A stretch of DNA of 25,949 bases, from positions 1 through 25,949 of IMG/VR virus record IMGVR_UViG_3300042673_000265; one strand, given 5' to 3'. The notes beneath the pieces were generated by a model. That model ran no database searches. It saw only the letters and a list, made by a program, of their open reading frames with translations, and had not been told where the DNA came from. The translations under genes were made by a program, and so were the position numbers. The number at the start of each line of letters is the position of its first letter. Within the stretch, counting starts at the first letter, position 1. This stretch comes from a virus. Shown one piece after another: positions 6,206-20,557 of this stretch.

Positions 6206-7531
6206 TTATCCTACTAGTTTACTATTATTTTTGAAATGTGTTAATTGATAATCATCTAAGTCTGACCATGAAAAATTAAATACTTCTTTGCATTCTCGTT
6301 TAATTTCGTTGGGTAGAGAATGAAAATCAGTTTTATTATAAATTTCTGGCCAATGTTCTGCTTTAATCGCATTATATTTTTCTGTAAAAATTTTATTATA
6401 ATCTTCTTCTATTAGAATTTTTTCTCGTTCTTGATATCTCTTAAAGAGATCGGCGCCTAGGACATCAACTGAATGTATGGACCTTTCTAAAGATTCTGGA
6501 ATATCAAAAATCTTGGGGGAAATCGCTTTTAAACGTTCAACAGTTTGTGCTCTGAGATTAATGCAAAGATTATAATTATGTTCTATGTCTGCAGATATTT
6601 CTTCTCTGCGATCTTGTAGTATTTTTGGAAACACACGGATATTTTCAATCGTCTGTTCCCATCGTGTTTCGAGATCGTCGACAGTGGCATATTCTGGGCA
6701 AGGTAAATAGTTATTAAAAGTTTTAAATCCTAATTCTGTTAGTTCATCGAACAAAAATCTTGATGTGGGTAACATGATAAATGGATGATGATTTAAAATA
6801 GTCATCCATGTTTTTTCAGTTATCGAACCATCTGGAGTTTCGGATAATATTGTAAAATTTGATAGCTGATATTGACCAACAGGAAAGATAACTGCACGAA
6901 AGATAACCGTTGGATCTTCTTGAAGAGTATTATTATCAACGAATGCATTTTTAGTACAGTAATCAAAAAACTCTTCGAAATTTACTGGAATCTGGCCAAA
7001 ATTCTGATAAAAATAATACAACACATGAGATTTTTGCTTATCTGCTGATGGGAAAGTCCATATGATATCACCTAATAGATCCGAGTCATATAATCTTTTT
7101 AAAAATCCAACTCTGTTATGCCTATCCAGCATACCTGTAGGAAAATACCCTTTTTCGATATGCCAATTCCATGAAGAATTGCGTATGTTTCTTTTTTCTA
7201 AATCTTGCATACAATGAAATAGCCAATAATTAATCGGAACTACCTCACAATTTTCAAGAATATTAGTAGATAGAAGTTGTGGATATGTCTTTCTAATATT
7301 GGAACTTACAATCAAAGTAATTTTACTAAAATTATGTGCGATGATTTTGTCAATGATTCCTACTAGAATATTAACAGATGATTCTCCTTGACTCGCAATA
7401 ATCAAATGAGTTTTATTAAATGGTAAATTTATCTTTGTTAATTCTCGGTTAACTATTTCATCTGTAATTTCATCTAATAGACGTACACTAAAAGGATAAA
7501 GATAATTCAGATCAATATATGCTATTATCAT
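6206..7531 (-). CDS. Fucosyltransferase-like (GT10-type motif) phage protein
   Basis: A 441-residue protein if it starts at the ATG (7531) that overlaps the TGA of the phosphoribosyltransferase gene by four bases. Two in-frame ATGs lie further upstream, but the overlap start fits the rest of this operon and gives a natural N-terminus (MIIAYIDLNYLYPF). Near residues 235-275 the segment from ILSETPDGSITEKTW to HHPFIML and ELGFKTF matches the donor-binding pattern of alpha-1,3-fucosyltransferase-like (GT10) proteins, where a conserved EKT followed by a PFI and GFKTF block is diagnostic. The first half is not recognised, and the last 100 residues are charged and helical. It may transfer a sugar to DNA, lipopolysaccharide or a protein; acceptor and donor are unknown. 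The family assignment rests on a single motif region. Confidence 0.6.
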   Translation of the reverse strand: MIIAYIDLNYLYPFSVRLLDEITDEIVNRELTKINLPFNKTHLIIASQGESSVNILVGIIDKIIAHNFSKITLIVSSNIRKTYPQLLSTNILENCEVVPINYWLFHCMQDLEKRNIRNSSWNWHIEKGYFPTGMLDRHNRVGFLKRLYDSDLLGDIIWTFPSADKQKSHVLYYFYQNFGQIPVNFEEFFDYCTKNAFVDNNTLQEDPTVIFRAVIFPVGQYQLSNFTILSETPDGSITEKTWMTILNHHPFIMLPTSRFLFDELTELGFKTFNNYLPCPEYATVDDLETRWEQTIENIRVFPKILQDRREEISADIEHNYNLCINLRAQTVERLKAISPKIFDIPESLERSIHSVDVLGADLFKRYQEREKILIEEDYNKIFTEKYNAIKAEHWPEIYNKTDFHSLPNEIKRECKEVFNFSWSDLDDYQLTHFKNNSKLVG

Positions 7532-8073
7532 CTTTCCCATGGATAAACGATCCAAACATCTTCTTCGGCTTTGTTTATTTCCACAGCACTGTAGTTGACC
7601 TTGCGGCTAAACTTGCTGGATAAATTATCAAATAATACTGCAAAACGCACATTGTTGCCCCAGACATCTGCCCAGGTTGGATCGTTAGGCAAGTTGCTAC
7701 CTTGCCAATCGTCGATGATCCAATCTAATGTAGCACCTGTATCATTGATATCATCTAAAATTAAAATGTTCTTACGCAGGCTAGGATCACTTGTTGGTTC
7801 ACCTTTAGGTCTAGGAACTGCACTAGCATCTAAATACCCAAAGGCATCTTCAGCCATCCAACCGTTGCTTTCACCACCAGTACCATCACGCAGGGCTACT
7901 TTTAATGTTTCCATTGGAACGTCTAACATATGACTCATATATACCGCGGGAACAAGTCCTCCGCGGGTAAGTCCTACGATATAATCTGGACGCCAGTTGT
8001 CTTTATACATTTGGTATGAGATTTTATTAACGTATTCACGGATCTGTTGATCATCTACATATAACTTTTTCAT
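7528..8073 (-). CDS. Type I phosphoribosyltransferase (Gpt/Hpt-like)
   Basis: A 181-residue PRTase-fold protein. The PRPP-binding loop is clear at residues 104-116 (ILILDDINDTGAT), and the pyrophosphate-binding turn VGLTRGGLVPA lies at 33-43. This pattern is closest to xanthine/hypoxanthine-guanine phosphoribosyltransferases, which convert a purine base plus PRPP to the nucleotide. A loop at 60-100, rich in Gly and Pro, is longer than usual. It lies three genes after folE in the same unit, with ATGA overlaps on both sides. It may simply salvage purines for replication. Given the neighbouring deazaguanine genes, it could also act on a 7-deazapurine base, but that is inference. Confidence 0.8.
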   Translation of the reverse strand: MKKLYVDDQQIREYVNKISYQMYKDNWRPDYIVGLTRGGLVPAVYMSHMLDVPMETLKVALRDGTGGESNGWMAEDAFGYLDASAVPRPKGEPTSDPSLRKNILILDDINDTGATLDWIIDDWQGSNLPNDPTWADVWGNNVRFAVLFDNLSSKFSRKVNYSAVEINKAEEDVWIVYPWER

Positions 8074-8372: not shown

Positions 8373-8705
8373 TTATCCTTTGTATGCTCTAACGCTGATG
8401 ATCTTACCGTCTTCGTTGTAGGTGATGACGTCTGTGACGAATATTTGTTCTGCACCGTTGATAGTGATCAACAGTTCAGCAATGATGTTATCGCCATCTT
8501 CATATATCGCACCTGGAGTGGCTGTGATACTGTCAACACTGTTGAAAATCTTTTCATAGACAGCTACCACATCATTTTTACCTACTGCGGCATTTTCCCA
8601 GTCACGTAATTGGCAACCTGGTGCGAACATCTTAGATATCGCATCTAAATTTTTATATGAAAATAGATAAAAATATTGTAAACTCAATGCTTTTAAATCG
8701 ATCAT
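8373..8705 (-). CDS. NTF2-like / SnoaL-like small protein
   Basis: A 110-residue protein with the pattern of the NTF2/SnoaL cone-shaped fold: an N-terminal helix pair (YFYLFSYKNLDAISKMFAPGC), then GKNDVVAVYEKIF, followed by alternating beta strands ending in ITYNEDGKIISVRAYKG, which is typical of the last strands of this fold. These domains serve as binding pockets, isomerases, hydratases or enzyme partners. No catalytic residues can be assigned with confidence, although Asp35 and Asp91 line up with common pocket positions. The ATG overlaps the TGA of folE by four bases, so it is coupled to FolE and may act on a pterin or a nearby intermediate; that link is inference from position only. Confidence 0.75.
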   Translation of the reverse strand: MIDLKALSLQYFYLFSYKNLDAISKMFAPGCQLRDWENAAVGKNDVVAVYEKIFNSVDSITATPGAIYEDGDNIIAELLITINGAEQIFVTDVITYNEDGKIISVRAYKG

Positions 8706-9397
8706 CTTGGGGCAAACTCCTGTTGTAATTTAATATTGTCAAAAAATTCTTTCTTAGTGTTGCCATCATCTTTAAAAGCACCTTTAAGCACTGTGGTTTG
8801 TGTTAGACTACTATGTGCCATGATGCCTCTGTTCTCACAGCAACCATGTGTGGCCTGTATATACACTGCTACGTTTTCACTGCCTGTGGCTTTCATTATT
8901 TCTCTCGCGATGTCATTAGCAAGTTCTTCTTGCAGTGTACCACGACGGCTACACCATTGAGCAATACGAGTATACTTACTAAGTCCAATAAGTTTCTGTG
9001 CGGCGATAATTCCAATATAGGCAACACCACTGACAGGCTGGTGATGATGACTACACATACTACGAAGCTCACTTCTAACCACCAGCATACCTTCATATCG
9101 GTCCTCACTATCATTTGGAAAAGCTGTAGCGTCTGGTGCCGGATCATACCTACCTGCCATAATCTCATTATAGTACATTTTAGCAAGACGTCTGGCTGTG
9201 CCCTTTGAGTTAGGATCATTTTCACGATCGATCAACAAGGTATCTAACACGCCCTCAAATGCTCGAGTCGCTTCATCGATCAACGCTTCTTTATTTTCTT
9301 CAGTGATGTATTCTGAGATGTTATCACCTGCCCAGAATCGTTTGTTATTGTTCTTTAGATTATTACGAATAGTTTCGCTGACTACATATTTTGTCAA
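8702..9397 (-). CDS. folE: GTP cyclohydrolase I, TTG start
   Basis: FolE opens GTP to 7,8-dihydroneopterin triphosphate, the first step to both folate and 7-deazaguanines. Zinc ligands are visible as Cys115 and His118 (SMCSHHHQPVSG) and Cys186 (HGCCENRG). IGLSKYTRIAQW and RRGTLQEELANDI are the classic active-site and substrate-binding blocks. The length of 231 residues is normal (E. coli FolE 222). The start is a TTG at 9397-9395, preceded at seven bases by GGAG; the next in-frame ATG is too far in. The gene has its own near-consensus promoter. In this context (queE, a queD-like gene and dpdA in the same window) its product most likely feeds the deazaguanine route. Confidence 0.95.
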   Translation of the reverse strand: MTKYVVSETIRNNLKNNNKRFWAGDNISEYITEENKEALIDEATRAFEGVLDTLLIDRENDPNSKGTARRLAKMYYNEIMAGRYDPAPDATAFPNDSEDRYEGMLVVRSELRSMCSHHHQPVSGVAYIGIIAAQKLIGLSKYTRIAQWCSRRGTLQEELANDIAREIMKATGSENVAVYIQATHGCCENRGIMAHSSLTQTTVLKGAFKDDGNTKKEFFDNIKLQQEFAPR

Positions 9398-9487: not shown

Positions 9488-10627
9488 TTATAATCCTAAT
9501 TCTGTACGTAGATCATCTACAGGACTGGACCAATCGTTGGTAAATGATCGCAAATATTCGATACGATCTAGATCTTCTTGTGTTTCTAATACCATTTCTT
9601 CATTGCAAAAATGCAATCGACATTTGTTTGATAGTGCTGCCTGTAATAATTTTTGACGATGTGCGGGATCATCGGGTAAACTGAATATACTGAATAACAA
9701 TATATGATCCACACCACCGTGTGTTATCTGATAATCTAAAAATGCATAGTTAGTTCCTTCATTATCACCACCTTGATAAGGGAAGGTATAATTACGTTTT
9801 TGACAGTATGCTTTGACTACAAGTGTTTGGAAATGGAGATCTATGTGCCTAGTCTTGATTCCTTCATATTCACCGTGGGTAACTACCACCTCACCCGGTT
9901 TAATATCTACAACCTTTGTATATTGACGATCAAACAGTTTACGGAAATATGCGCCAGGCCATTTACGATGGGGTTGTCCCCCACGCACTAGTAATCTTAC
10001 ATCCATGCTTACTCTAGTCTTTCCGGTTCTATTAGGAAAGTTGCCATGTATATGTTCTTGTAAAAACAAGTGCGCCTGCCCTGGATGTAGTGTAACTGGC
10101 CAAGCGTTCGTAGCACATGCATTTTGTATGCGTTCGTAGTCCCAATTTTCCAAAACTGTACGACGAGTGATTTCTCTGCTAGCATCCAAATCTAAAATTT
10201 GTAAGGTATTGGTTTCATAACAATCAGTAAAAGGCACCCAAATTGTGCGTAGTCCTAGTCCATTGCCCACCCATCGTCCTTGATGAAATAATAAAACTGC
10301 ACCAATTTTGTCTTGGTCTGGCTCTAAGATGCGTAAATTACCAAATTTTTGAATTAAAACGTCGGTTCCTAACTGTGGTACAATTAAATCATTTATCAAT
10401 TGATCATAATAATCGTAATATTTGGTATTCAACAATTCATGCGATGCTTTGTGATTCAATTCTGAAATTTTGTATGGAGGGACGACTTCATGAATAAGGT
10501 CTAACGATTGAACGTCAGGATAAAATTTTCTAATGGTTTCTAATACGATATCAACTAATGGATATTTTTCTAAATCATAATTAAGTGATTTATTGTTAAA
10601 TGTTTCTTGTGTGCGGCCCAAACTCAT
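9488..10627 (-). CDS. 2OG-Fe(II) oxygenase fused to a LIC12192-type carbohydrate-cluster domain
   Basis: A 379-residue two-domain protein. Residues about 85-215 look like a 2-oxoglutarate/Fe(II) dioxygenase of the PhyH-like kind. IWVPFTDCYETNTLQILD (129-146) is the typical strand with a Trp-x-Pro start, and PGQAHLFLQEHIHGNFPN (182-199), followed by RVSMDVR (205-211), gives the distal metal His (His194) and the 2OG-binding Arg. Residues about 255-362 resemble the LIC12192 family of sporadic carbohydrate cluster proteins: a FQTLVVKAYC start, an ILLFSIFSLP core, RLHFCNEE and DRIE at the end. I know the two as separate neighbours in bacterial glycan loci; here they are one chain. The ATG overlaps the stop of the B12-type radical SAM gene by four bases. 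It is the last gene of the 14-gene run. The oxygenase call is solid; the second domain rests on memory of the family pattern. Confidence 0.7.
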   Translation of the reverse strand: MSLGRTQETFNNKSLNYDLEKYPLVDIVLETIRKFYPDVQSLDLIHEVVPPYKISELNHKASHELLNTKYYDYYDQLINDLIVPQLGTDVLIQKFGNLRILEPDQDKIGAVLLFHQGRWVGNGLGLRTIWVPFTDCYETNTLQILDLDASREITRRTVLENWDYERIQNACATNAWPVTLHPGQAHLFLQEHIHGNFPNRTGKTRVSMDVRLLVRGGQPHRKWPGAYFRKLFDRQYTKVVDIKPGEVVVTHGEYEGIKTRHIDLHFQTLVVKAYCQKRNYTFPYQGGDNEGTNYAFLDYQITHGGVDHILLFSIFSLPDDPAHRQKLLQAALSNKCRLHFCNEEMVLETQEDLDRIEYLRSFTNDWSSPVDDLRTELGL

Positions 10628-12411
10628 GATATACTCACCTTATTTTTAAGTAATCCTTTCCGACGAAGGAGGTAGAAATTTTCTGTTACCGAATCAAGTT
10701 GATTGCTAACCTGATATTTAGTTAAACCAGATTGTCCGCTGTATAAATTAAACTCAGTTGTAAGTTCTATAGGATATGTTTCATCTTTATCATATATAAA
10801 CATTTTCTGCAATTTGTATATGTCAATTGAATAATTTACACATAAATCTGCTAAAGTTTTTATAGCTAAATCATAGACATGGTTTTTATTATTATACAGT
10901 GGTTCGTATGATACACTATGAAGTGCGTGACCTCCTTGATAGTGGCTAGGAAGTTTTCCGGTACTTAAATAGATAGTTACGATTTCTCTTAGATCGGTGT
11001 AATGGGCAGAGAACAACAAATCCTGCTTTATCATATTAAATAATTTGTCATAAAAAGTTCTATAAGCTACACCATGAACATTTCTTGCGTATCTGGAGAT
11101 AATTTGAGTATAGCCATTCATATGAAAATGAATAATCATCCAGGCATACATGTAACTTTCAATGATGTCATCAAAACTCATAGTTTTTGTTTGGGTAACT
11201 ATTTCATTAAATTCTTTAACAGAATCTTCATCTTTTTCTCCCCCCAATAGAAGATAATCTTCCACCATGATAGATTTGATTCCGTAGAGTGTTCTCGAAA
11301 ATGGAGAGGCCATCTCTGAGTTACGTAATAACTGTGCAAACCAAACATCTATAATCTGATGCTGTCCTAATTCTAACAAATCAGTGAGCCCTTGTTTCCA
11401 AGATTCGAGAGTTTCATTAGGCAGCCCTAATATCATTTCGGTATAGGTGTTAACCCCGTATTTTAGACTGGCATCCATTACTTGTTTAATGTCGGAGATA
11501 TCTAAATTTTTACGTTTAATATCAATTAGAGTTTGTTCGTTCATGCTTTGAACACTAACGGTTATACCTTTACTATAAGGACCAATCTCTTTAGCGATTT
11601 CGTAGATAATGTCGGTGCTATTTTTGGTGTATTGAACACTAATAGATTCAATCATTGATTTATCTGCCGCTGCTCTGATAAGTTTAGCAATCTCTAGGTC
11701 GCGTTCTTTGAATATACCAAAATTTGCATCAGCAACAAAAATGTAACTTACACGATTGTTAGCAGCCCAATTTAATTCTTCGGCCACACGTTCAATCCCG
11801 AATTTTTTAATTTTAGAATAGGTTAAACTGCCCCAATCACAGAAGGTGCACTGAAAAGGACATCCCCTATTAGTTTCCAATGACATCGCCCACACAGCAT
11901 TCGGATTATTTTTAATAATTTTATCAAAAACTCCAGTCGTATACGGACTAGGTATAGTTAACTCTTGTAATCTTGATTTATTGTAAGATTGTTCGATTGG
12001 TGTTGAATTTAAAATGCTATTTAATAGAGATAAAAAAGATTCCTCACCTTCGCCGAATATCACAGAATCAATGAACCAATAGTTTAATGTTTGGTCTGTA
12101 GGTTGAGGTCCACCGAAAACTATTATACAATCTGGCCAGCGTTTTTTAATTTGTTCTGCTAACACTAAACAATAATTTTCGTTCCATAGATAACAACTGA
12201 AACCGCATACTACGGGATCAGTAAGTTGTTCTAAAACTAAACTAATTTGTTGTCTACGGAAAAAAATATTATCTAATAAAAAATTATCAGTAATATGTGA
12301 AAATTGACTTACATAACTCCACACACACCCTGCACTATAAGGTAACCAGTAATTTTTTTCATTACGAACTTCAACAGCGTATTGGGGTTGAAACAAATAA
12401 ACATTTTTCAT
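10624..12411 (-). CDS. B12-binding-type radical SAM protein (595 aa)
   Basis: A 595-residue radical SAM protein. The N-terminal domain (residues 1-165) has the B12-binding pattern: PVVCGFSCYLWNE at 66-78, IIVFGGPQPT at 96-105 and FGEGEESF at 119-126. The cluster motif is NRGCPFQCTFCDWGS, with Cys184, Cys188 and Cys191. FVADANFGIF and MILGLPNETLESW follow in the barrel. The C-terminal 200 residues are not recognised. It is a paralogue of the 678-residue protein encoded at 6074-4038, sharing CDWG and ADANFG. The start lies directly after a run of A residues with no Shine-Dalgarno sequence. Its stop overlaps the 2OG/LIC12192 gene, which suggests consecutive steps on one substrate, perhaps a sugar or a modified base. 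No methyl-transfer activity can be read from the sequence alone. Confidence 0.8.
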   Translation of the reverse strand: MKNVYLFQPQYAVEVRNEKNYWLPYSAGCVWSYVSQFSHITDNFLLDNIFFRRQQISLVLEQLTDPVVCGFSCYLWNENYCLVLAEQIKKRWPDCIIVFGGPQPTDQTLNYWFIDSVIFGEGEESFLSLLNSILNSTPIEQSYNKSRLQELTIPSPYTTGVFDKIIKNNPNAVWAMSLETNRGCPFQCTFCDWGSLTYSKIKKFGIERVAEELNWAANNRVSYIFVADANFGIFKERDLEIAKLIRAAADKSMIESISVQYTKNSTDIIYEIAKEIGPYSKGITVSVQSMNEQTLIDIKRKNLDISDIKQVMDASLKYGVNTYTEMILGLPNETLESWKQGLTDLLELGQHQIIDVWFAQLLRNSEMASPFSRTLYGIKSIMVEDYLLLGGEKDEDSVKEFNEIVTQTKTMSFDDIIESYMYAWMIIHFHMNGYTQIISRYARNVHGVAYRTFYDKLFNMIKQDLLFSAHYTDLREIVTIYLSTGKLPSHYQGGHALHSVSYEPLYNNKNHVYDLAIKTLADLCVNYSIDIYKLQKMFIYDKDETYPIELTTEFNLYSGQSGLTKYQVSNQLDSVTENFYLLRRKGLLKNKVSIS

Positions 12412-12422
12412 TTTTTTTTTTT
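12411..12422 (-). repeat. Run of 12 A residues between two genes
   Basis: On the minus strand an unbroken run of 12 A residues spans the TAA stop of the epimerase gene and the ATG of the radical SAM gene. It replaces the ribosome binding site; A-rich leaders can be bound by ribosomal protein S1. The exact length may also be uncertain for technical reasons. Confidence 0.8.
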
Positions 12423-13335
12423 ATTTTTGCTTCCAATGAGCAATAGTTAAATCTAATCCAGTATCTAAATCAACTTTTGGAGCCCACCCAGTAAGTTCTG
12501 TTACTAGCTTATGATTGCTGTTAAGTAGATAAATTTCACCAGGACGTTCTGGTTTAGTATTCCAAAAGATACTGCCTTTCCAATCTAACTTGTCTGCAAT
12601 CTTATCCGCTAATGCGCTAATTTGTATGGGATTGTTTGGACCAATGGTAAAGATATAACCACTATTGGTTTTTTCTGGATTTTCGATAATCGTAGACCAT
12701 AGGTCTAGCAGATCATCAATGTATAAGAAGTTGCGATAAGGTGTACCGTAACCCAATCTTACTGCACTTGAATTACGCAACATCTGAGTAATAATCTGTT
12801 CAACTACAAAGAAGTCGTTTTCTTTACGCCCATAGGTATTGGTCTGACGGATAGCACAGAATGGCAAGCCTAAACTGCGATGTGCGTATTCTAAATATTT
12901 CTCACATGCCAGTTTTGCCACAGCATAAGGTGCATTGGGATTAGGTTTAGTGTTCTCGTCAAATGTTGGAATCGTGCCTTTAAAATATCCTTGTTTTTTA
13001 ATTAGGTCACTAACGGGTTGCCAACCATATACTTCCATGGTACTAGCAAATACAAAGTTCTTTAAGTTCTTAAGTTTGGCAGCACTTTCAATTAGGTTGA
13101 CTGTGCCCACATAGTTAATTTCACTAAAGGTAACTTGCTCATAGAAACTGCGTTCAACTTCAGTTCTAGCACCAAAATGTACGATAATCTCAGGGTTAAA
13201 ACTAAATAATTCTTCGCGAACTTTGCTAAAATCTAACAGATCTGCTGTCATAGCAAATACAGTATGATTCTTTTTTAATAATTTAGTAAAATGTGATCCG
13301 ATAAATCCGCTGGCACCTGTAATAAAAATTTTCAT
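12421..13335 (-). CDS. Extended-SDR nucleotide-sugar epimerase/dehydratase
   Basis: A 304-residue NAD(P)-dependent sugar nucleotide enzyme of the extended short-chain dehydrogenase family. The cofactor loop GASGFIGS is at 7-14, the catalytic Ser/Thr at 98-99 (FASTMEVYG), and Tyr137-x3-Lys141 (PYAVAK) completes the triad. RNFLYIDDL near 205-215 and a C-terminal RPGE are usual in UDP-glucose 4-epimerase and GDP-mannose dehydratase relatives. The length is close to normal. The substrate cannot be chosen between UDP- and GDP-sugars. Its ATG overlaps the stop of the small 2OG-type oxygenase gene by four bases. In this operon it sits with a DegT-like protein and a glycosyltransferase, which suggests synthesis of a specific sugar. 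Confidence 0.88.
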   Translation of the reverse strand: MKIFITGASGFIGSHFTKLLKKNHTVFAMTADLLDFSKVREELFSFNPEIIVHFGARTEVERSFYEQVTFSEINYVGTVNLIESAAKLKNLKNFVFASTMEVYGWQPVSDLIKKQGYFKGTIPTFDENTKPNPNAPYAVAKLACEKYLEYAHRSLGLPFCAIRQTNTYGRKENDFFVVEQIITQMLRNSSAVRLGYGTPYRNFLYIDDLLDLWSTIIENPEKTNSGYIFTIGPNNPIQISALADKIADKLDWKGSIFWNTKPERPGEIYLLNSNHKLVTELTGWAPKVDLDTGLDLTIAHWKQK

Positions 13336-13844
13336 TGATTTGTTACTCCTGTAATTATCATCATGTACCTGTTACTATGTCCTAAATTTGCTGTCATGTG
13401 TAAATCCGACAGTTTAAAACCAATCCAGTCACCTGCCGTCCAATTTGTAAATCCAAAATCTGCTATTTCGATATATTGACCGGATTGCCAATCATCCAAC
13501 ATAACCATCACTCTAGATATTTCGGAGTTGTTGTTTATTCCTGTTAACTCGTTATAAAACTTATATACATCTTTATGTTTAGGAATTACGTTTCCGAAAT
13601 CTAATCTATTTACTTGAACTTTCAGTTGTTTTAACCAGTTAAACTCTTTATATATAGAAAAAAATCTAATATCACCTTCTAAATCTTTAATTTGCCAAAC
13701 AGAAGTATTATACCTTTTAGCGTCCTCGGGATCAAACAAATCACTTAAAGCATTTGAGTTATTTAAACTATATTTTTTTTCTACAAATTTTAATTGCTTA
13801 ATGTCCTCTAAGTTCCATGTTGGATGAATGTGACCTCGCATCAT
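13332..13844 (-). CDS. Small 2OG-Fe(II) oxygenase-like protein
   Basis: A 170-residue protein with a double-stranded beta-helix pattern like that of aspartyl/prolyl hydroxylase-type oxygenases. PKHKDVYKFY gives a His-x-Asp pair (His90, Asp92). TAGDWIGFKLSDLHMTANLGHSNRY gives a distal His149 and Arg159, in the order metal His-x-Asp, then His, then 2OG-binding Arg. It is shorter than many relatives but long enough for the core. No signal peptide is present. ATGA overlaps join it to the DegT-like gene before it and the epimerase after it. It may hydroxylate a sugar, nucleotide or amino acid. This is the second 2OG-type protein in the operon; the substrate is unknown. Confidence 0.65.
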   Translation of the reverse strand: MMRGHIHPTWNLEDIKQLKFVEKKYSLNNSNALSDLFDPEDAKRYNTSVWQIKDLEGDIRFFSIYKEFNWLKQLKVQVNRLDFGNVIPKHKDVYKFYNELTGINNNSEISRVMVMLDDWQSGQYIEIADFGFTNWTAGDWIGFKLSDLHMTANLGHSNRYMMIITGVTNQ

Positions 13845-14419
13845 TTTATTATAATCTCTCTTAAATCTGGGTATTCTTTATATTTAACAGTCTGGTCCAC
13901 AGTGGATAATAATTCTAATCCACGAGCTGCATCTTCTATAGTAGGCTTATAATGATATCCAACACGGAATACCTTTTGTTGTTCCCAGGGACTAATATTA
14001 AGATCTCGCCCATCATACCGCTGTTGGCTAAGGACATCATAGATTTCTACATCATCAGTTAAGACCGCACCACCACGACCAATCTCAAGAGGTTTATTAT
14101 AACCAAAACTTAGGCACTGTAGCTGTCCCTCGCGATACATACCTTCTCGAAGCAGTCTAGCTGAATCCCAGATGCGTGTGCCAATGAACTGATATTCACC
14201 GATCCATGGTTTATCAGTATAGCTATATTCAATGCCTAACTTGTGCATGGTCATTGGGATACTGAGATAGGTATGTGCTGGAAATTGCACACGAGTGATA
14301 CGGTCATAGCGTAGACACAGCTCAATAGCGTGTGTGCAACAATCTGTCATCACGGCATATGGTGCGCCTGTGAACAGAGTCAATGCCCGTTCAAATTCAT
14401 AGATCTTATCAAACATCAT
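13841..14419 (-). CDS. Half-size DegT/DnrJ/EryC1-type aminotransferase-like protein
   Basis: A 192-residue protein with the large-domain motifs of DegT-type PLP-dependent sugar aminotransferases. VQFPAHTYLSIP (44-55) matches the substrate-side strand, RIWDSARLL (82-90) holds the Asp that contacts the PLP ring nitrogen, and SFGYNKPLEIGRGGAVLTDD (104-123) contains the candidate PLP lysine, Lys109, and the glycine-rich turn. Full-length relatives have about 370 residues; here the C-terminal domain is missing. It is not a simple truncation by frameshift, because the stop overlaps the next start by four bases and the sequence ends in an ordered way. It may work as a minimal enzyme, a partner subunit or a non-catalytic binding protein. 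Confidence 0.7.
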   Translation of the reverse strand: MMFDKIYEFERALTLFTGAPYAVMTDCCTHAIELCLRYDRITRVQFPAHTYLSIPMTMHKLGIEYSYTDKPWIGEYQFIGTRIWDSARLLREGMYREGQLQCLSFGYNKPLEIGRGGAVLTDDVEIYDVLSQQRYDGRDLNISPWEQQKVFRVGYHYKPTIEDAARGLELLSTVDQTVKYKEYPDLREIIIK

Positions 14420-15474
14420 TTGATATTGTTTAATAGATTGGTCGCTGAAAAGAATTTTTCTGTAAGACTGACAGCATTAGCACGAACTAACTGTGTGCGA
14501 GAGTCAAAGTTTTCCATGTGTTCACGGATTATATTGACCAGTTTAGTTTTATGTGTCAGATAGCTATCAAAACTTTCAGTCCACTCACTTGGGTATTTAA
14601 ACAATCCGCCATACATCTCTTGATAACTTAAACGATCTGGAACCACCGGAACTGCACCAACCAGCATACCTTCATAGCAACTGATGCCTAGAGTTTCTTG
14701 TAGGTTAGCTGAGAATACTATCTTACTTTCACCTAATAGGCGATGATACTGATCTTTAGTCAACTGTTGATCCTGGCAGACTATCCACTCATATTGTGGT
14801 AGTGTTTGGGCTAGATCGCGAAATATCTCTACCTGTTTCTCTGGAGCGATGCGATGCGGAAACAAGATAAGATCACGCTTAGGTAAATCCTTATATGGCG
14901 CAAGTATCTCTGCCATATATTCCATAGGCCAACCTGTGCGAACGATCTTCTTTTCGTTAAACCAGTTAGGTACTTTAAACAAGTTAAAGTTGAACATAGT
15001 AATATGGAAATCAGTAGCAAAGTAGTTATAGTCCACAGCTTCAAAGAAACTTTTCTCTGCATGTCTGACCCATGGCGCATCACCAATAAGACGTCCTAAG
15101 AAGTCCTGTGGATCATAACTACCAGCATGCCAAAGTGCGTGTATCTTTACCTTTATGTCCAACAGCTCGGACATATATTTAAGATTGATGATGCCAGGAT
15201 GCCAAGCATCAGTGAAAATGAAATGATCTCCAGCGTGAACCTTACCATCCGTAAACAGGCGCCCAATCTGCCCAACTTGATCAGCTTTGTAAACATTTGT
15301 GCCGCCAAAGTTGAGAAAAGCACCGGGAGTAGTAGCTTGAGGAATATCGGTAGGGCCTTCAATAACCACAACATCATGTCCTGCATCCTTTAGTAGATTA
15401 GGCACATGAGTCTTCCATTGACCCGTGTACCTTGTTTCAACTGCTTCTAGATCAACTAGAAATACAGTCATCAT
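14416..15474 (-). CDS. GT-B glycosyltransferase, similar to tRNA-queuosine mannosyltransferase type
   Basis: A 352-residue GT-B fold glycosyltransferase of the GT4-like group. The C-terminal Rossmann half begins at ILFPHRIAPEKQVEIF (about 203-218), where Arg and Lys usually contact the nucleotide-sugar phosphates. ANLQETLGISCYEGMLVGAVPVVPDRLSY carries the donor-binding Glu-x7-Glu motif. The FPHR..PEK and QE..GIS..E...GA.P..P.RLSY blocks resemble the DUF3524/queuosine mannosyltransferase group. That is suggestive beside QueD and DpdA, but it is a motif-level likeness only. The N-terminal half has TDAWHPG and HALWHAGSYD segments. It is coupled by ATGA overlaps to the genes on both sides. The acceptor could be modified DNA, tRNA or a glycan. 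Confidence 0.75.
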   Translation of the reverse strand: MMTVFLVDLEAVETRYTGQWKTHVPNLLKDAGHDVVVIEGPTDIPQATTPGAFLNFGGTNVYKADQVGQIGRLFTDGKVHAGDHFIFTDAWHPGIINLKYMSELLDIKVKIHALWHAGSYDPQDFLGRLIGDAPWVRHAEKSFFEAVDYNYFATDFHITMFNFNLFKVPNWFNEKKIVRTGWPMEYMAEILAPYKDLPKRDLILFPHRIAPEKQVEIFRDLAQTLPQYEWIVCQDQQLTKDQYHRLLGESKIVFSANLQETLGISCYEGMLVGAVPVVPDRLSYQEMYGGLFKYPSEWTESFDSYLTHKTKLVNIIREHMENFDSRTQLVRANAVSLTEKFFSATNLLNNIK

Positions 15475-15698
15475 TGACCTCTGTTGTTTCTATTATAGCC
15501 AACATGTCCATTACGGGCCTGCCATTGCTGACGTTTCTTACGGCGTTCCTGCCATTCTTTATATTCTGGCGATCTATATAGATCAGCCTCATCATATTTG
15601 ATCATACGGAAGCGACAGTAGTTTAACCATGCATCTAGGTCTTGGAAAATTTGGCGTACTTCAGCCTTCATTGGATATCTGCGATTGTCTTGTGCCAT
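15471..15698 (-). CDS. Small basic phage protein, unknown function (75 aa)
   Basis: A 75-residue basic protein, rich in Arg, Lys, Gln and aromatic residues, with a helical N-terminal half (EVRQIFQDLDAWLNYCRF) and an Arg/Asn/Gly-rich C-terminal tail that could bind nucleic acid. I do not recognise a family. A strong ribosome binding site (AGGAG) lies eight bases before the ATG and follows the QueD stop codon directly. The same leader string, GGAGAAACAA, precedes the sliding clamp gene. The stop overlaps the glycosyltransferase start by four bases. Confidence 0.7.
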   Translation of the reverse strand: MAQDNRRYPMKAEVRQIFQDLDAWLNYCRFRMIKYDEADLYRSPEYKEWQERRKKRQQWQARNGHVGYNRNNRGQ

Positions 15699-15707
15699 TT
15701 GTTTCTC

Positions 15708-16133
15708 CTATACGGACACAGATTGATAAGGACGAGTATGATTATACTCAACATAACACCCATTCTCGCCATCTTCACTTACTTCAATGTGAACATCACG
15801 ATTGGGATACTTGCTGGCGATCTGATCGTATAAGTCATCTGCGATCATCTCACAACTCTTATAGTTTAATTCTAGTATGCCACTGTAGAGATTTTCACAC
15901 CAGCGTTTGAACTGTATGAACTCTAGTTCACGATCATCATGGAATACATCAATACTTATCTTAAAATGGAACATATGGCGGTGCGGATGTGCTAGAAAAC
16001 TGACATCTGCCAGTTTAGGATCTGAAGCCGCCGCTGGAAAAGCATGAATACCTTCCTTCTGGAAAGTCACCCAGATTTTCTTCTGTGCTGATTGTTTAAT
16101 TCTTTCTATACGTTCACGTTCTATTTTTATCAT
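15708..16133 (-). CDS. queD: 6-carboxytetrahydropterin synthase-like protein (QueD), no canonical catalytic Cys
   Basis: A 141-residue PTPS/QueD-fold protein, expected to convert dihydroneopterin triphosphate to 6-carboxytetrahydropterin for QueE. The zinc-binding His-x-His appears as HRHMFHF (His51, His53), with His30 as the likely third ligand. LEFIQFKRW (70-78), NYKSCEMIADDLYDQI (90-105) and VHIEVSEDGENGCYVEY (114-130) match the three conserved blocks that follow. In canonical QueD a catalytic Cys sits four residues before the first His of His-Gly-His. Here that position is Leu47, and the only cysteines are at 79, 94 and 126. The N-terminal 20 residues are an extra basic helix. It follows radical SAM gene 17140-16139 by five bases. 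The fold is clear; the chemistry may differ from standard QueD. Confidence 0.8.
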   Translation of the reverse strand: MIKIERERIERIKQSAQKKIWVTFQKEGIHAFPAAASDPKLADVSFLAHPHRHMFHFKISIDVFHDDRELEFIQFKRWCENLYSGILELNYKSCEMIADDLYDQIASKYPNRDVHIEVSEDGENGCYVEYNHTRPYQSVSV

Positions 16134-16159: not shown

Positions 16160-17140
16160 ACACATATTAATACATATAGGGTTAGGGTTGTTATCTAAAC
16201 TTTCTGGTAAGATTTTTTGATAGAACTCATTTTTTATGATATCTTCTATTTTGTGATAATGTAGATCGATATGATCAAACTTATCCAATCTTAAATATTT
16301 TTTTAAATGTATTTTCGTAGCTTTATTGATTGTTGATTTATCTGGTGCTACATGGGATCCAAGTAAATAACAACAAGGCCAAACAGTCCCATCAGCATAG
16401 ATACTGACCCATTTAATATCTCTACTTTCGCAATCTATTTTTAATTTATCATATTGATTATACAATTTTACAATATTTTCTTCGACATTGTCAACAGTTG
16501 TCTTTTCGATTTTATGAGAAAATACTCCTTTATTGTAAACATCTGCAGATAAAGTGGGTCCGAATCTATCACTCGGTAAATATTCAAACCTCTTAAACCC
16601 TAATTTTTTTGATAAGGCTGAGCAGGCGTCGATCTGATGCTGATTGTGCTTGAAAACTATCATTTGCCATACAGCGTTTCCCCCTGCTTTTATGAAAGAT
16701 TCTGCATGGTTAATTATACGTTCCCAATCAGTGTTAACACGATATAAACCATGTGTATCTTTCATACCATCAAGAGCAAAGTGTACAGTCGCATTATCCC
16801 TGATAATTGTTCTACCCAATTCTTCCCAAAAATCGCAATTTCTCATGCTACCATTGGTGCCAAGCATAAATTTTCCTGGACTGTGTTCTAACACATATCT
16901 ACAGAATTTTATAATATCCGGATGCATAGCATTATCGCCGGTGGTCCCAAGAAATTTTGTATATTGTATATGATTTAAAAAATCAGGAGATACTTGATTT
17001 TTAAATACTTCAAAATCTAAAAAAGTATTTAAATTTGGAAGAGTACCATCATTTGGAGTTCGGGCACACTGTGGACATAGTGCATTACAACTATTAGTTG
17101 TTTCGATGTCTAATTTATATATTTCTTCAGGTCGAAACAT
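16139..17140 (-). CDS. SPASM-type radical SAM protein (333 aa)
   Basis: A 333-residue radical SAM protein. The cluster motif SCNALCPQC is at Cys18, Cys22 and Cys25. In place of the GGEP turn it has GTTGDNAMHPD (65-75), a variant seen in some of these families. A C-terminal auxiliary-cluster region of SPASM type is suggested by Cys237, the pair Cys256-Cys257 in ADGTVWPCCYL, and Cys323/Cys327 at the very end (PICINMC). SPASM proteins often act on peptides, but also on small molecules such as sugars. Its ATG shares one base with the stop of the 175-residue gene, and queD follows by five bases, so it is firmly embedded in the dpdA-queD operon. The substrate is unknown. Confidence 0.82.
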   Translation of the reverse strand: MFRPEEIYKLDIETTNSCNALCPQCARTPNDGTLPNLNTFLDFEVFKNQVSPDFLNHIQYTKFLGTTGDNAMHPDIIKFCRYVLEHSPGKFMLGTNGSMRNCDFWEELGRTIIRDNATVHFALDGMKDTHGLYRVNTDWERIINHAESFIKAGGNAVWQMIVFKHNQHQIDACSALSKKLGFKRFEYLPSDRFGPTLSADVYNKGVFSHKIEKTTVDNVEENIVKLYNQYDKLKIDCESRDIKWVSIYADGTVWPCCYLLGSHVAPDKSTINKATKIHLKKYLRLDKFDHIDLHYHKIEDIIKNEFYQKILPESLDNNPNPICINMCRIENRE

Positions 17141-17667
17141 TATTTAATAATCTCATCTTTACCATATTGGTCCCAATCAGTAAAGCTGTCAGTTGTTGTT
17201 AAATCACGTAAACGATGGCACCAAACCCCTGGGTTTGAATGATCAAAGTCTAGATCGTCTAGCTTAATTGTAGCATTATATCCCAGCTGTGTCAAGTAGG
17301 GTAATTTTACCGAAATCTGCGGAATGAATCTGCGATGACTAATAAATGTACATTCTAGCACACCTTGTACCACTGCAACGTCAAAATCTAGGGTGCACCA
17401 AAGGCCTGAGGTCAAGCATTGATCAATCATACGTTCCCACGGACGCCAGGCGTTGACATCATCTGTGGCTAAGTTAGGAAAACTTTGATTAGCACCAAAA
17501 TAAATATGTTTACACTCTTTTTCTTTGGCTAATGTGATAATTTCTTCTGCATGTTGTACGCCTACTACGAACAGTGTCATCATACCAAATGCAGGAGTTC
17601 GTTCGATCTCCACACCAGTGAAGTATGTTATATCTTCTTTTACACCATCTGTATAATCACGCTTCAT
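17140..17667 (-). CDS. Phage protein of unknown function between coiled-coil and radical SAM genes (175 aa)
   Basis: Given as 175 residues from the ATG at 17667, which overlaps the end of the preceding small gene by 11 bases. An upstream ATG at 17706 would add 13 residues but would overlap by 50 bases. The protein has hydrophobic strands separated by charged helices (MMTLFVVGV, then EEIITLAKEKECKHIYFG), then a Trp-rich middle and a long acidic segment (KLDDLDFDHSNPG) before a WCH motif. The alternating pattern suggests an alpha/beta fold, but I do not recognise the family. No signal or membrane segments are present. Its position, one base from a radical SAM gene and two genes from the queD-like gene, suggests a partner in the same pathway. 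Confidence 0.7.
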   Translation of the reverse strand: MKRDYTDGVKEDITYFTGVEIERTPAFGMMTLFVVGVQHAEEIITLAKEKECKHIYFGANQSFPNLATDDVNAWRPWERMIDQCLTSGLWCTLDFDVAVVQGVLECTFISHRRFIPQISVKLPYLTQLGYNATIKLDDLDFDHSNPGVWCHRLRDLTTTDSFTDWDQYGKDEIIK

Positions 17668-17851
17668 CGTATTCTGCCAGTTGTTTTTTAGTTTGAGTAA
17701 TTTCACGTTTAATCCCTAGTTTCTCATGTTTGATTTTACCAAGGTGCATGTCATCTAGGTAATGACTATACCCATCTTTGATTTTCTTTTCCAACACTGC
17801 ATGGCGTTCTTGTAGATGTTTAAGATGATGTTCTAATTTTTCTTTGTTCAT
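17657..17851 (-). CDS. Small coiled-coil protein, DUF465/YdcH-like
   Basis: A 64-residue, highly charged helical protein with heptad-like Leu/Ile spacing through its length (LEHHLKHLQERHAVLEKKI, later HLGKIKHEKLGIKREI). The His-x3-Leu-x2-Leu start and the KxxKLxxKxxI end match the small DUF465 (YdcH-like) family of bacterial coiled-coil proteins of unknown role. A good ribosome binding site (AAGGA) lies eight bases before the ATG. Only 35 bases separate it from the twitch-type radical SAM gene upstream, and it overlaps the next gene by 11 bases. Confidence 0.7.
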   Translation of the reverse strand: MNKEKLEHHLKHLQERHAVLEKKIKDGYSHYLDDMHLGKIKHEKLGIKREITQTKKQLAEYDEA

Positions 17852-17886: not shown

Positions 17887-19023
17887 TCATAATTTAACTC
17901 CAAATGTTTCTTCAAAATTTTGATTTCTAATCTGATCCAATTCTAGTGTATAGTTTACAAAAGTATTATATGATGATGCATTCATTATACACTTATTTAG
18001 ATTATTTTGCAATGATTTTAATGTCTGGATTGATCGTTCTGGGTTATTATCTATAGTGGACAATGTATCAATAGCTTGCTGTAATTGTTCATTCGCTGTT
18101 TGTTTTAACGCATCATTTAATACTGCTGGATTTAAAAAAATTGGATCTTTACAGATACTAAACCATATTTCCAGTGGTTGATCTGCATATTCTATTTTAA
18201 GACTCTTAAAGAATATCAATAGATTGTTAATGTCTAATATACTATATGCACTTAACACAGTATTAAATCCTACACTTTGTCTAGTAGACAGTATCTGTTT
18301 AATATTTTTAACTAACGTAGGCCATACAGTTCCATTACGAACATATTCTGCAACATGGGACACAGCATCAAGACTGATAGTCCAATGAACACGATCAAAA
18401 TGTTTGACTAATTCAACAATTTTATTATTAATTACACTAGCATTTGTAGTAATCAATAATTCGCAAGCGGTATTATTTAAACGAATAAGTTCTTCTAATA
18501 CCGCTATATTTTCTTTAATTAATAATGGTTCCCCACCTGTAAAATTAATTCTTTTCACCGTAGACAATAATAATTTAATATCCTGTTGGCTCTTGTGATT
18601 TTCTAAATGTATATTAGTCGGTGTGTGATACTTGGATAATTTTAGATTTTTCTGTATCTCTCTGGCTATCTCACTGCTGAAACTAGGTTCACAGCTGCGG
18701 CAACTGAAATTACATAAATTACTGTGGCGCAGATCTAGATATAAAATTTTGTCAGGAACAGTTTCGATGCTATAATTCCAATCTTTAAGTGCCAATGCCC
18801 TGGTGCTGGTATATCCTTGTTCTTCTAATTTCAGACAACCTTGATAACACTCTTGTGGAATTTTACCTTGACTAATGTTATTTTTTATGTCAGCCAGATA
18901 TGTTGATTTAAAAAAATCTATTGGCGAAACATCAAGTTTAGTAGAACTACTACAACACATTTTAATACCGTCTGCTTGGACAAATTGATGTATCCAAGGC
19001 AAAGGGCAAAAGAATTTAGACAT
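17887..19023 (-). CDS. Twitch-type radical SAM protein (378 aa)
   Basis: A 378-residue radical SAM protein with an added N-terminal cysteine domain. The catalytic cluster motif is NLCNFSCRSCEP, with Cys104, Cys108 and Cys111; NFTGGEPLL near 158-166 is the SAM-binding turn, and LLITTNASV and WTISLDAV follow in the barrel. Before it, FCPLPWIHQF (5-14), MCCSS (Cys23, Cys24) and CYQGC (Cys59, Cys63) form a set of five cysteines that resembles the CPxPW/twitch auxiliary-cluster element, which is more often found at the C-terminus. The start overlaps the dpdA stop by eight bases, which ties it closely to DpdA. It could act on the deazaguanine base before or after insertion, or on an unrelated substrate; only the enzyme class is certain. 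Confidence 0.82.
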   Translation of the reverse strand: MSKFFCPLPWIHQFVQADGIKMCCSSSTKLDVSPIDFFKSTYLADIKNNISQGKIPQECYQGCLKLEEQGYTSTRALALKDWNYSIETVPDKILYLDLRHSNLCNFSCRSCEPSFSSEIAREIQKNLKLSKYHTPTNIHLENHKSQQDIKLLLSTVKRINFTGGEPLLIKENIAVLEELIRLNNTACELLITTNASVINNKIVELVKHFDRVHWTISLDAVSHVAEYVRNGTVWPTLVKNIKQILSTRQSVGFNTVLSAYSILDINNLLIFFKSLKIEYADQPLEIWFSICKDPIFLNPAVLNDALKQTANEQLQQAIDTLSTIDNNPERSIQTLKSLQNNLNKCIMNASSYNTFVNYTLELDQIRNQNFEETFGVKL

Positions 19024-20557
19024 CTTGTTCTAATTCATCTAGTTTAGCTTCATCTAAGCCACTGTCGTCTACATGATGTTCTTCGACTTCTTCACTTTCA
19101 AATAATGTATTAAACATAGTACTTGCGTTAACTGTTTTCTTACCTGTAGCACCACGTGTACCAATGATTGACATCCAGAACTTGCTGAATTCATCAATGA
19201 TAGCCAATGCTGTACCTTTGTCGCTGGTAGCAAATATAGCATCAACCACATCACGGAAGTACACACGATCAAATGTTTCTTGTACTAGCATCCTTGGAGT
19301 AAGTCCAAGATCATATTGACGATTAGCTTCTTGCACTGCTGTTAAATGGCTCCAAACATTATGACCCATCTGTATAGCATAACTGAAACTATCCCAACTT
19401 GTCTTACCTTCTTTATTAATTTTATTTAGATCACCTGGCTTATAGATACAGATATCTTTAATAGTACAACGTTGGCTTATTGGGCTTTCTGTGAATGCTT
19501 TGAACAAGTTATCTTGTAATACGGCATCACGGAACCGACGTGTATCTGTTGAATATTTTTTATCGTCAACACTAGGTACCATTCTATAGACCCATTTTTC
19601 TCTATCAGTGATTTCTGTTTGAATATAGATCTGCCCATTAGCACTAGCCAAGAATGGACTAGCGCAATCAAACGATATTGTAAAGTTTGAATTATGATAC
19701 TTACGAACAGCTCGTTGTATATCTGTTAATAAACATGCCCACTCAAGTTTACTTGTGCCCAAGAAGTGCATCCAATCATGCAAGCCTTTTTCTAAAAGAC
19801 CATCAAAGCGTAGTTCTACAAGTCTGCGTAATACTAAGTGTACATCACACATGTTCTGTCCACCCATAGCCCAACCTTCAAATGGTTGTGCATACTGCTT
19901 AGGATCACAGTACTTCTTCATACGATCATACCAATCGTCTGCGTCTGCGTGATTCTCACCCTGTAGTACGTTTAAGAATTTACAAGCCCCTGTGCGATTC
20001 TTCATGAAGTAATCATTGTTAATATAAGTGCCTTGAACTGCTTCCATGTATGTATTAATACCTGTGGCTTTACGACCTGCTGGACTACGAGCCACCCACG
20101 CTGGGATATCTAAGATCATACCACGATCCATATAAGCATCCATCCATGATAACACTAGCTCACGTTTCTTCTGTGCTTTAGGACACGTAGGATTCTTCCA
20201 ATCACCTTCCCATACACCCTTACCAATTTGGAAACCACCTGAATCACCTAAGATAAAACTACGGCTACGATCTCTATTTCTGACCATATCTTCTTTAGGA
20301 CTGTGTTTGTTAACATCTAATTCAGCATGACCTGCTGAATACAAGGCCCATTGATATGGAAAATATGCTGCATCTGGATTAAGCCAATTGAGACCTTCTA
20401 TACCATTTTCAAAGTCAGAGGGTATGCGTGCTGGATCTACATACGTAGGATCATGCCGTTGTTTACCTACATAGGTAGCATAGAAGCCACTCAATGCTGG
20501 TAAGAATACGGCATAGTCTAGCTGTTTGCTGGTAAGATTGTCTCTTTCAAATGTCAT
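19016..20557 (-). CDS. dpdA: DpdA-like DNA 7-deazaguanine transglycosylase (TGT family)
   Basis: A 513-residue protein of the tRNA-guanine transglycosylase family. ILGDSGGFQ (102-110) carries the catalytic Asp105 that recognises the base. SFDCASPFLASANG (295-308) carries the nucleophile Asp297 in the block that reads FDCVxPTRxxRxG in TGT. VLQGENHAD, MGGQN and HFLGTSK match the intervening blocks, and GHNVWSHL (398-405) the end of the zinc region. The zinc motif is altered: Cys364 and Cys370 with His399, instead of Cys-x-Cys-x2-Cys and His. Phage members (DpdA) swap guanine in DNA for preQ0 or a related base and protect against restriction. An acidic tail of about 25 residues ends the chain. 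The gene sits two bases after the sliding clamp gene, and the start has only a weak ribosome site. DNA rather than tRNA as substrate is inferred from the phage context. Confidence 0.85.
   Translation of the reverse strand: MTFERDNLTSKQLDYAVFLPALSGFYATYVGKQRHDPTYVDPARIPSDFENGIEGLNWLNPDAAYFPYQWALYSAGHAELDVNKHSPKEDMVRNRDRSRSFILGDSGGFQIGKGVWEGDWKNPTCPKAQKKRELVLSWMDAYMDRGMILDIPAWVARSPAGRKATGINTYMEAVQGTYINNDYFMKNRTGACKFLNVLQGENHADADDWYDRMKKYCDPKQYAQPFEGWAMGGQNMCDVHLVLRRLVELRFDGLLEKGLHDWMHFLGTSKLEWACLLTDIQRAVRKYHNSNFTISFDCASPFLASANGQIYIQTEITDREKWVYRMVPSVDDKKYSTDTRRFRDAVLQDNLFKAFTESPISQRCTIKDICIYKPGDLNKINKEGKTSWDSFSYAIQMGHNVWSHLTAVQEANRQYDLGLTPRMLVQETFDRVYFRDVVDAIFATSDKGTALAIIDEFSKFWMSIIGTRGATGKKTVNASTMFNTLFESEEVEEHHVDDSGLDEAKLDELEQDV

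Follow-up and report, generated by a model that had tools for sequence, protein, structure and literature searches.

A GT4-like glycosyltransferase accompanies DpdA in phage deazaguanine operons and bacterial chromosomes and may place a sugar on 7-deazaguanine in DNA

Results

A deazaguanine operon with a glycosyltransferase

The 25.9-kb IMG/VR virus record IMGVR_UViG_3300042673_000265, analysed here at its full length and referred to as the window, carries an operon in which a gene for a GT4-like glycosyltransferase (GT) lies among genes of the deazaguanine pathway, including one for a DpdA-type guanine transglycosylase. All assigned genes lie on the minus strand, in the order fatty-acid desaturase, T4-type polymerase, methyltransferase-like, sliding clamp, dpdA, two radical S-adenosylmethionine (SAM) proteins, p188, QueD-like, p75, GT, mini-DegT, 2-oxoglutarate (2OG)-type oxygenase, short-chain dehydrogenase/reductase (SDR), B12-binding radical SAM, 2OG/LIC12192 fusion, folE, SnoaL-type, p99, phosphoribosyltransferase, p449, a second B12 radical SAM, queE and exonuclease-type genes (Table 1).

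The original prediction, made from the sequence of the window, had singled out the genes from GT to the fusion as a sugar-pathway block at 10624-15474, joined by 4-base overlaps at nearly every junction. The six genes are real, consecutive and in the claimed order on the minus strand. Five of them lie inside that span, but the fusion gene (9488-10627) falls outside its start; similarly, 4-base overlaps are present at p75/GT, GT/DegT, DegT/2OG, 2OG/SDR and B12 radical SAM/fusion, but a 9-base gap separates the SDR gene from the B12 radical SAM gene. Because such overlaps are common on the minus strand (11 of 25 listed junctions), they are a sign of an operon that is not special to the sugar block, and we rejected them as evidence for the block. 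Chance assembly is ruled out, since the genes are conserved as homologues in many other phages.

GT and dpdA are linked across viral loci

Scanning IMG/VR with GT returned at least 598 stretches, each encoding a relative, of which the best 80 were kept, and the reciprocal scan with DpdA yielded 80 loci. Genes were counted in loci with room for them, according to cut-offs of our own choosing: 0.7 kb for the QueD-like gene, 4.5 kb for folE, 5.5 kb for dpdA, and 9 kb downstream of GT for queE and the phosphoribosyltransferase. We found dpdA in all 62 GT-seeded loci with room (73/80 without the room filter), and every dpdA gene seen in this set (73/73) was on the strand of GT. The QueD-like gene was present in 76/76 loci with room and folE in 47/51 (33/36 with 9 kb), while loci extending 9 kb or more downstream contained queE in 36/36 cases and the phosphoribosyltransferase in 34/36. 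Among the DpdA-seeded loci, GT was found in 43/43 with room and in 58/80 overall; the two sets are not fully independent, as at least 10 contigs are common to both by name.

Once near-identical GT genes had been removed, 106 of 113 distinct GT loci carried dpdA. Five of the seven without it end at most 2.5 kb from GT on the dpdA side, and the other two belong to the isolated phages Phosso and ACP17, with dpdA elsewhere and another type of DpdA adjoining GT, respectively. The GT position itself can hold other proteins: a 424-aa protein with a sub-threshold glycosyltransferase match (0.0097), followed by an SDR, in L092; a counterpart whose glycosyltransferase match (3e-5) is just under the cut-off in L091; and proteins of 338 and 404 aa without a Pfam match, plus an SDR, in L093.

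Isolated phages were searched with GT using tblastn, which gave 19 phage records. Eleven of these belong to PA5oct/Paride-like Pseudomonas phages (Wroclawvirus), all 11 with a DpdA homologue, and in Paride and PAC2, the two examined, this homologue lies just upstream of GT with a one-base overlap. In Sinorhizobium phage Phosso (host S. meliloti), GT is flanked by folE and the QueD-like gene. In Acidovorax phage ACP17 (two records, one phage), GT adjoins a 424-aa protein with DSGG, QG and SYD motifs, which on its own matched the phage DpdA profile weakly (26%); a two-sequence profile of ACP17 and Xanthomonas phage X1 matched the combined phage and bacterial DpdA profile at 97.3%. The row in X1 reads folE, GT (25% identity), a deposited queuine tRNA-ribosyltransferase, QueD-like and queE. 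GT genes in the phage records are mostly labelled hypothetical.

GT and DpdA also pair on bacterial chromosomes

A GT-profile scan of species genomes gave 18 loci, of which L197-L200 and L214 are phage operons judging by their other genes and 13 (L201-L213) look bacterial. DpdA was found in 17/18, the exception being a 4.6-kb contig, and in 13/13 bacterial-type loci a DpdA homologue (26-33% identity) adjoins GT or lies near it. These results, together with those from viral loci, show that GT is a near-obligate genetic partner of a transglycosylase of the tRNA-guanine transglycosylase (TGT) family in phages and bacteria.

Hosts of the bacterial pair include Magnetospirillum, where the order is GT, QueD-like, DpdA, as well as Azospirillum, Sulfitobacter, Shimia, Rhizobiales, Pelagibacterium and others, and the chromosomal pairs come without polymerase or clamp genes. 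Directly upstream of GT, a Vut_1 gene for a YhhQ-type preQ0 transporter was present in six of the 13 bacterial-type loci, namely the islands of Rhizobiales, Azospirillum, Shimia, two Sulfitobacter and Pelagibacterium (6/6). The corresponding family, PF02592, equals COG1738/YhhQ and has been implicated in preQ0 transport (PMC5372724; here and below, statements on papers cited by PMC number refer to the accessible portion of each text). At E 1e-20, GT was found in 1 of 385 sampled Alphaproteobacteria, namely the query genome itself; the bacterial pair is thus rare and patchy, and the sample added no cases of linkage.

A scan of neighbours in the bacterial islands, which did not use dpd models, recognised neither dpdB nor restriction genes. 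PADLOC marked a PD-T4-4-type defence gene near the Azospirillum pair (L202:4496-6106) and no restriction partner. Separately, an open reading frame (ORF) of 585-592 aa directly follows DpdA in Sulfitobacter and Shimia (L210:12558-14315, L209:12567-14324 and L212:9212-10990) and is a candidate partner; its L210 copy matched nothing in Pfam or PADLOC.

GT and DpdA retain predicted catalytic residues

With 16.3 bits against Pfam Glycos_transf_1, GT is below the cut-off of 26.4, and for this reason we call it GT4-like rather than placing it in that family. Its AlphaFold2 model (pLDDT 82.6, pTM 0.82) has a full GT-B fold, for which the nearest folds among the matches listed are retaining GT4/GT20-type enzymes (VIA Z 21.7-19.4), such as 6kih (Z 21.7, rmsd 3.7, 315 aligned) and BshA 6d9t (Z 21.4, rmsd 3.5, 298 aligned). 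R208, K213, E260 and E268 are invariant across phage and bacterial homologues and the EX7E motif is intact, as it is in the X1 homologue; EX7E together with the R/K donor residues is what we take to be the GT4-type signature. Model and alignments thus show GT as a predicted complete GT4-like GT-B enzyme whose putative donor-site residues are intact. A PDB sequence search with GT gave nothing usable, and the T4 alpha- and beta-glucosyltransferases were not among the 50 VIA matches listed, which excludes nothing.

For DpdA, an hhalign comparison of the combined phage and bacterial profile with the TGT profile gave a probability of 91.4 (E 1.1e-7, 342 columns), against 0.0-0.1% for nine comparison pairings of unrelated profiles and two thinner DpdA-type profiles (phage-only DpdA, 0%; ACP17/X1 two-sequence, 0.1%). 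The phage-only profile matched E. coli TGT weakly (15%). Since the phage-only profile failed where the combined one matched, the link to TGT rests on the bacterial proteins. In the alignment with E. coli TGT, D105-S106-G107-G108-Q110, D150, G200, G228 and D297 are invariant, at what we take to be the positions of the DSGGxQ, QG and FD motifs and of the catalytic aspartates. A PDB sequence search with DpdA gave nothing usable.

Deazaguanine-pathway genes

The original prediction had placed the sugar block between QueD and FolE. The label QueD is borne out by the fold: the nearest folds to the model of the QueD-like protein are E. coli QueD and 6-pyruvoyl-tetrahydropterin synthase (PTPS; Foldseek 4ntk E 2.6e-5; VIA Z 10.7, rmsd 2.5, 107 aligned), and H30, H51 and H53 are invariant. 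It is not borne out at the level of family, as the protein matched neither Pfam PTPS nor TIGR03367 nor any other Pfam or NCBIfam model, its profile matched ACP17 PTPS at 14% by hhalign, and a PDB sequence search gave nothing usable. The alignments also show no Cys just before H51xH53, presumably the place of the QueD catalytic Cys ahead of the HxH zinc ligands. True PTPS/QueD-family genes, moreover, coexist with the QueD-like gene, as the PTPS model matched in 6/12 related records and in Rhizobium phage RHph_I1_18 a gene deposited as PTPS is close to the QueD-like gene. We accordingly rejected a plain QueD, and observe that the QueD-like gene travels with GT while PTPS genes coexist in other phages.

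A search of 12 related records, among them nine environmental contigs that may be fragments, found no QueC over the cut-off. The substrate would therefore be the carboxy base or host-made preQ0/preQ1. The carboxy base is a possible glycosyl acceptor, and the bacterial transporter points to preQ0-type bases. Two further genes were seen in the operons of relatives, each in a cluster of four loci: an IMP dehydrogenase/GMP reductase (L041:15176-16255), perhaps for guanine supply, and downstream of folE a 768-aa subtilase (L010:5832-8138; PF00082 1.8e-30).

Sugar genes are exchangeable cargo

The mini-DegT protein is a large-domain core without the C-terminal small domain, its best stretch ending at position 244 of the 360-position Pfam profile, compared with 360-390 aa including the small domain in full-length DegT aminotransferases. 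Its pyridoxal phosphate (PLP) lysine, K109, is invariant in 15 sequences and aligns with the Lys of the DegT structures 9bgp and 8e77. The SDR has GxxGxxG at 7, STMEVYG at 98 and YxxxK at 137, with UDP-glucose 4-epimerase, GDP-6-deoxymannose reductase and RmlB as best solved relatives. The best NCBIfam match of the B12 radical SAM protein is a KedN5-type C-methyltransferase (172 bits, cut-off 700), and 14 of the 24 loci seeded with it also contain folE or queE. Both families matched by the fusion, TIGR04324 and TIGR04323 (LIC12192), are 'sporadic carbohydrate cluster' families.

DegT was found in 34/80 GT-seeded loci, the B12 radical SAM in 8/80 (paralogues counted), SDR in 6/80, the 170-aa oxygenase in 5/80 and the fusion in 2/80. 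L062 reads GT-DegT-SDR-B12 radical SAM-fusion-folE and misses just the 170-aa oxygenase (identities to the window: GT 71, DegT 68, SDR 80, B12 radical SAM 57 and fusion 67%). Other loci are shuffled: L003 reads GT-B12 radical SAM-DegT-SDR-folE and L025 GT-SDR-B12 radical SAM-DegT, while L086 has GT, a nucleoside diphosphate (NDP)-sugar dehydrogenase, oxygenases, SDR and the fusion, the dehydrogenase cluster being present in three loci. We rejected the sugar block as a single unit from these neighbourhoods: GT is core, DegT is common in the near clade, and the exchangeable cargo comprises SDR, B12 radical SAM and oxygenases.

Relatives carry additional genes upstream of GT. A sulfotransferase-like gene was seen in 24 loci (in L001, at 6444-7034 between clamp and dpdA; PF03567 1.4e-5), and the sugar or the base may be sulfated. 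A pair of GFO/IDH/MocA and ADH-like genes (L060:6561-8344), perhaps for sugar oxidation, is present in 17 loci of another clade.

Elsewhere in the window, the methyltransferase-like gene at 21355-22320, in the polymerase/clamp interval, shares 26-39% identity with its counterparts in relatives, far less than is mostly seen for their polymerase and clamp; going by these identities, it is apparently fast-changing or swapped. The Twitch-domain radical SAM gene directly after dpdA (17887-19023) matched NF033640 over the cut-off (267 bits) and has full-length homologues in just eight of the loci collected at that stage. Pfam, NCBIfam and PDB sequence searches gave no usable match for p188.

Table 1 Features of the operon in the 25.9-kb window
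Feature	Coordinates	Strand	Basis and remarks
Sliding clamp (gp45-type)	20560..21291	-	First gene of shared core; homologue of Wroclawvirus gene annotated PCNA; no Pfam match
DpdA-type guanine transglycosylase	19016..20557	-	2 bases after sliding clamp gene; TGT profile match and motifs
p188, core protein	17140..17706	-	Homologues in 80 ORFs of the loci collected at that stage
QueD-like T-fold protein	15708..16133	-	Near GT in nearly all phages; model pLDDT 88.8
p75, small basic protein between QueD-like and GT	15471..15698	-	Isoelectric point 9.9; homologues in 60 ORFs of the loci collected then
GT, GT4-like GT-B glycosyltransferase, 352 aa	14416..15474	-	Operon core gene; fold, invariant residues, dpdA linkage
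Mini DegT-family PLP protein, 192 aa	13841..14419	-	PF01041 2e-13
Putative 2OG-Fe(II) oxygenase, 170 aa, cargo	13332..13844	-	Weak Asp_Arg_Hydrox under cut-off; one HxD at residue 90
SDR, nucleotide-sugar dehydratase/epimerase/decarboxylase type, cargo	12421..13335	-	Epimerase 1.7e-41
B12-binding radical SAM, cargo	10624..12411	-	PF04055 6e-15, PF02310 9e-8; CxxxCxxC at 184
2OG oxygenase and LIC12192-type fusion, cargo	9488..10627	-	TIGR04324 83.4 bits (cut-off 150); TIGR04323 55.0 bits (cut-off 55)
FolE, GTP cyclohydrolase I	8702..9397	-	PF01227 4.7e-40; CSHH and HGCCE motifs
Purine phosphoribosyltransferase-like	7528..8073	-	PF00156 6e-13; PRK09177 XGPRT 3e-7 under cut-off; PRPP motif LILDDINDTG
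QueE-type radical SAM, 7-carboxy-7-deazaguanine synthase family	3123..3974	-	TIGR03365 3.7e-12, under cut-off

Discussion

Judging from genes, folds and linkage, the operon probably makes a glycosylated 7-deazaguanine in phage DNA. The pairing of GT with DpdA, and the presence of NDP-sugar dehydrogenase, SDR and DegT genes beside GT, are what attachment of a sugar to a deazaguanine in DNA predicts. This possibility had been raised in the original prediction, and it gains from the recurrence of the pair in several phage lineages and in bacteria and from the nucleotide-sugar genes next to GT; the block on which it was founded, by contrast, is not one inherited pathway.

Going by the protein families, FolE, a QueD-family step and QueE would convert GTP towards 7-carboxy-7-deazaguanine, and DpdA would swap guanine in DNA for the 7-deazaguanine, with DNA rather than tRNA suggested as the substrate by gene context. 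The phosphoribosyltransferase may recycle the displaced guanine. GT would then move a sugar from an NDP-sugar to the side group of the base, a transfer slightly likelier to happen after insertion into DNA. SDR and mini-DegT would make first a keto-sugar and then an amino-sugar donor; methylation or oxidation of the sugar or the base may be the task of the B12 radical SAM and 2OG proteins. Because the cargo is exchanged between phages, the sugar probably differs from one phage to another while the GT-DpdA step stays constant.

Several observations weigh against this interpretation. The calculated charges of GT (-8) and DpdA (-11.5) make both proteins acidic, so that GT is without DNA-binding charge; an argument from charge for binding of GT to DNA was in fact tried and came out with the opposite sign. 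The closest folds to GT, BshA and tetrahydrobiopterin glucosyltransferase, belong to enzymes that act on small molecules and glycans. Pfam TGT matches neither the DpdA of the window nor the records of its relatives, folE is missing from 4/51 GT-seeded loci with room, and Vut_1 is over the Pfam cut-off in just 2/6 islands. The preQ0 nitrile offers no acceptor, so an extra step would be needed if preQ0 were the base. Finally, four of the 19 isolated-phage records (PhiXhv-12, -15 and -16 and Erwinia phage Ep032) have no DpdA match and a GT match of 25% identity at 78% coverage, and the PhiXhv-12 homologue adjoins a gene for a bacillithiol-type BshB deacetylase; these records speak against taking every distant relative for a deazaguanine enzyme. 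GT as an ordinary BshA was also considered, and the PhiXhv-12 homologue does look like one, but the PhiXhv proteins match at just 25% over 78% of GT and the adjoining BshB is unlike the window.

An alternative is that the transglycosylase acts on tRNA, in which GT would add a sugar to a queuosine-like base, comparable to galactosyl- and mannosyl-queuosine. There are GT4-type enzymes with tRNA queuosine as their acceptor, DpdA is related to TGT, and the transporter of the bacterial islands is of a queuosine-precursor type. However, dpdA in the phages sits in the replication region, between the sliding clamp and the deazaguanine genes, and all six tested genomes with the bacterial pair have a separate canonical TGT. 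Phage DpdA proteins assayed by others, furthermore, modify DNA (PMC6884629), and on balance we consider a tRNA substrate unlikely.

Also quite unlikely, in our view, is that GT acts on a free metabolite, a pterin or deazaguanine glycosylated for storage, export or feedback, and that the DNA base itself bears no sugar. The small-molecule enzymes among the closest folds and the acidity of GT would suit such a role, and FolE and the QueD-fold protein would make pterins. Yet in six islands GT, DpdA and Vut_1 are found without a recognised pterin gene among the neighbours inspected, and a role in storage gives no reason to expect that GT should be so strictly tied to a transglycosylase. That the block serves virion or host-surface glycans by making their sugar, and is in a deazaguanine operon by accident, is very improbable. 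Surface-glycan loci typically contain DegT, SDR, radical SAM and LIC12192 families, and the cargo is mobile, but no viral locus with room lacks the pairing of GT with dpdA, which also recurs on bacterial chromosomes. Accident may account for single cargo genes.

Sugar on 7-deazaguanine in DNA, the interpretation that we prefer, has partial precedents. Sugar on DNA is known at pyrimidines, namely 5-hydroxymethylcytosine, hydroxycytosine and base J. In animal tRNA, galactosyl- and mannosyl-queuosine are sugar-bearing 7-deazaguanines whose base is inserted by a transglycosylase, the queuosine cyclopentenediol being the acceptor of the sugar. Cui 2023 reportedly describes deazaguanines of the carboxy, formyl and methyl types, with no sugar among them. 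T4 differs from the scheme proposed here in its base, which is incorporated by the polymerase rather than by a transglycosylase. Its alpha- and beta-glucosyltransferases, acting on 5-hydroxymethylcytosine, are nevertheless like GT as read here, in being phage glycosyltransferases for a modified base (PMC13216743). The closest parallel in layout is the arabinosyl-deoxycytidine of Mosigvirus, where a DNA sugar transferase is encoded in a cluster of isomerase, epimerase, kinase and NTP-transferase genes; there, however, the sugar is arabinose, the base is a cytosine derived from 5-hydroxy-dCMP, and it is made before replication, not exchanged (PMC13390438).

Among deazaguanine systems, phages 9g, CAjan and nt-1 (Hutinet 2019, PMC6884629) resemble the window in that a single operon encodes FolE, QueE, a QueD-fold protein and a transglycosylase of the DpdA type. 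They carry the small bases dPreQ0, dPreQ1, dADG and dG+ and encode QueC or Gat-QueC (PMC6884629), whereas the operon described here has no QueC in reach and has GT wherever there is room; no word beginning with 'glycosyl' or 'sugar' stands in the accessible text of that paper. The bacterial dpd islands resemble the GT-DpdA islands in combining DpdA with preQ0 supply, YhhQ being present in ~9% of them; they are defined by dpdAB with restriction genes optional, and 'glycosyltransferase' is absent from the accessible text (PMC11888242). The accessible literature on deazaguanine or DpdA, including PMC12028318 and PMC12783734, contained no report of a link to a glycosyltransferase or sugar; an earlier mention in Cui 2023 or in a 2024 MMBR review is possible. 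DNA modification in Paride is not mentioned in the accessible part of the paper on this phage (PMC10761892).

For a wider proposition we see evenly balanced chances: that many phages and some bacterial chromosomes put a sugar on 7-deazaguanine DNA by a dedicated GT-DpdA pair, and that a shuffled phage cassette of DegT, SDR, NDP-sugar dehydrogenase, B12 radical SAM, 2OG oxygenases and perhaps sulfotransferase makes this sugar lineage-specific, in an antigenic-style variation of DNA. The proposition concerns phages already in culture (Phosso, Paride, PA5oct and ACP17) as well as the DNA of Sulfitobacter and Magnetospirillum. The interpretation would supply a function for GT genes that now mostly go by the label hypothetical. 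If it is true, a glycosylated purine obtained through base exchange would be new chemistry and would extend 7-deazaguanine DNA from small to bulky groups, with effects to be expected on restriction, CRISPR and sequencing.

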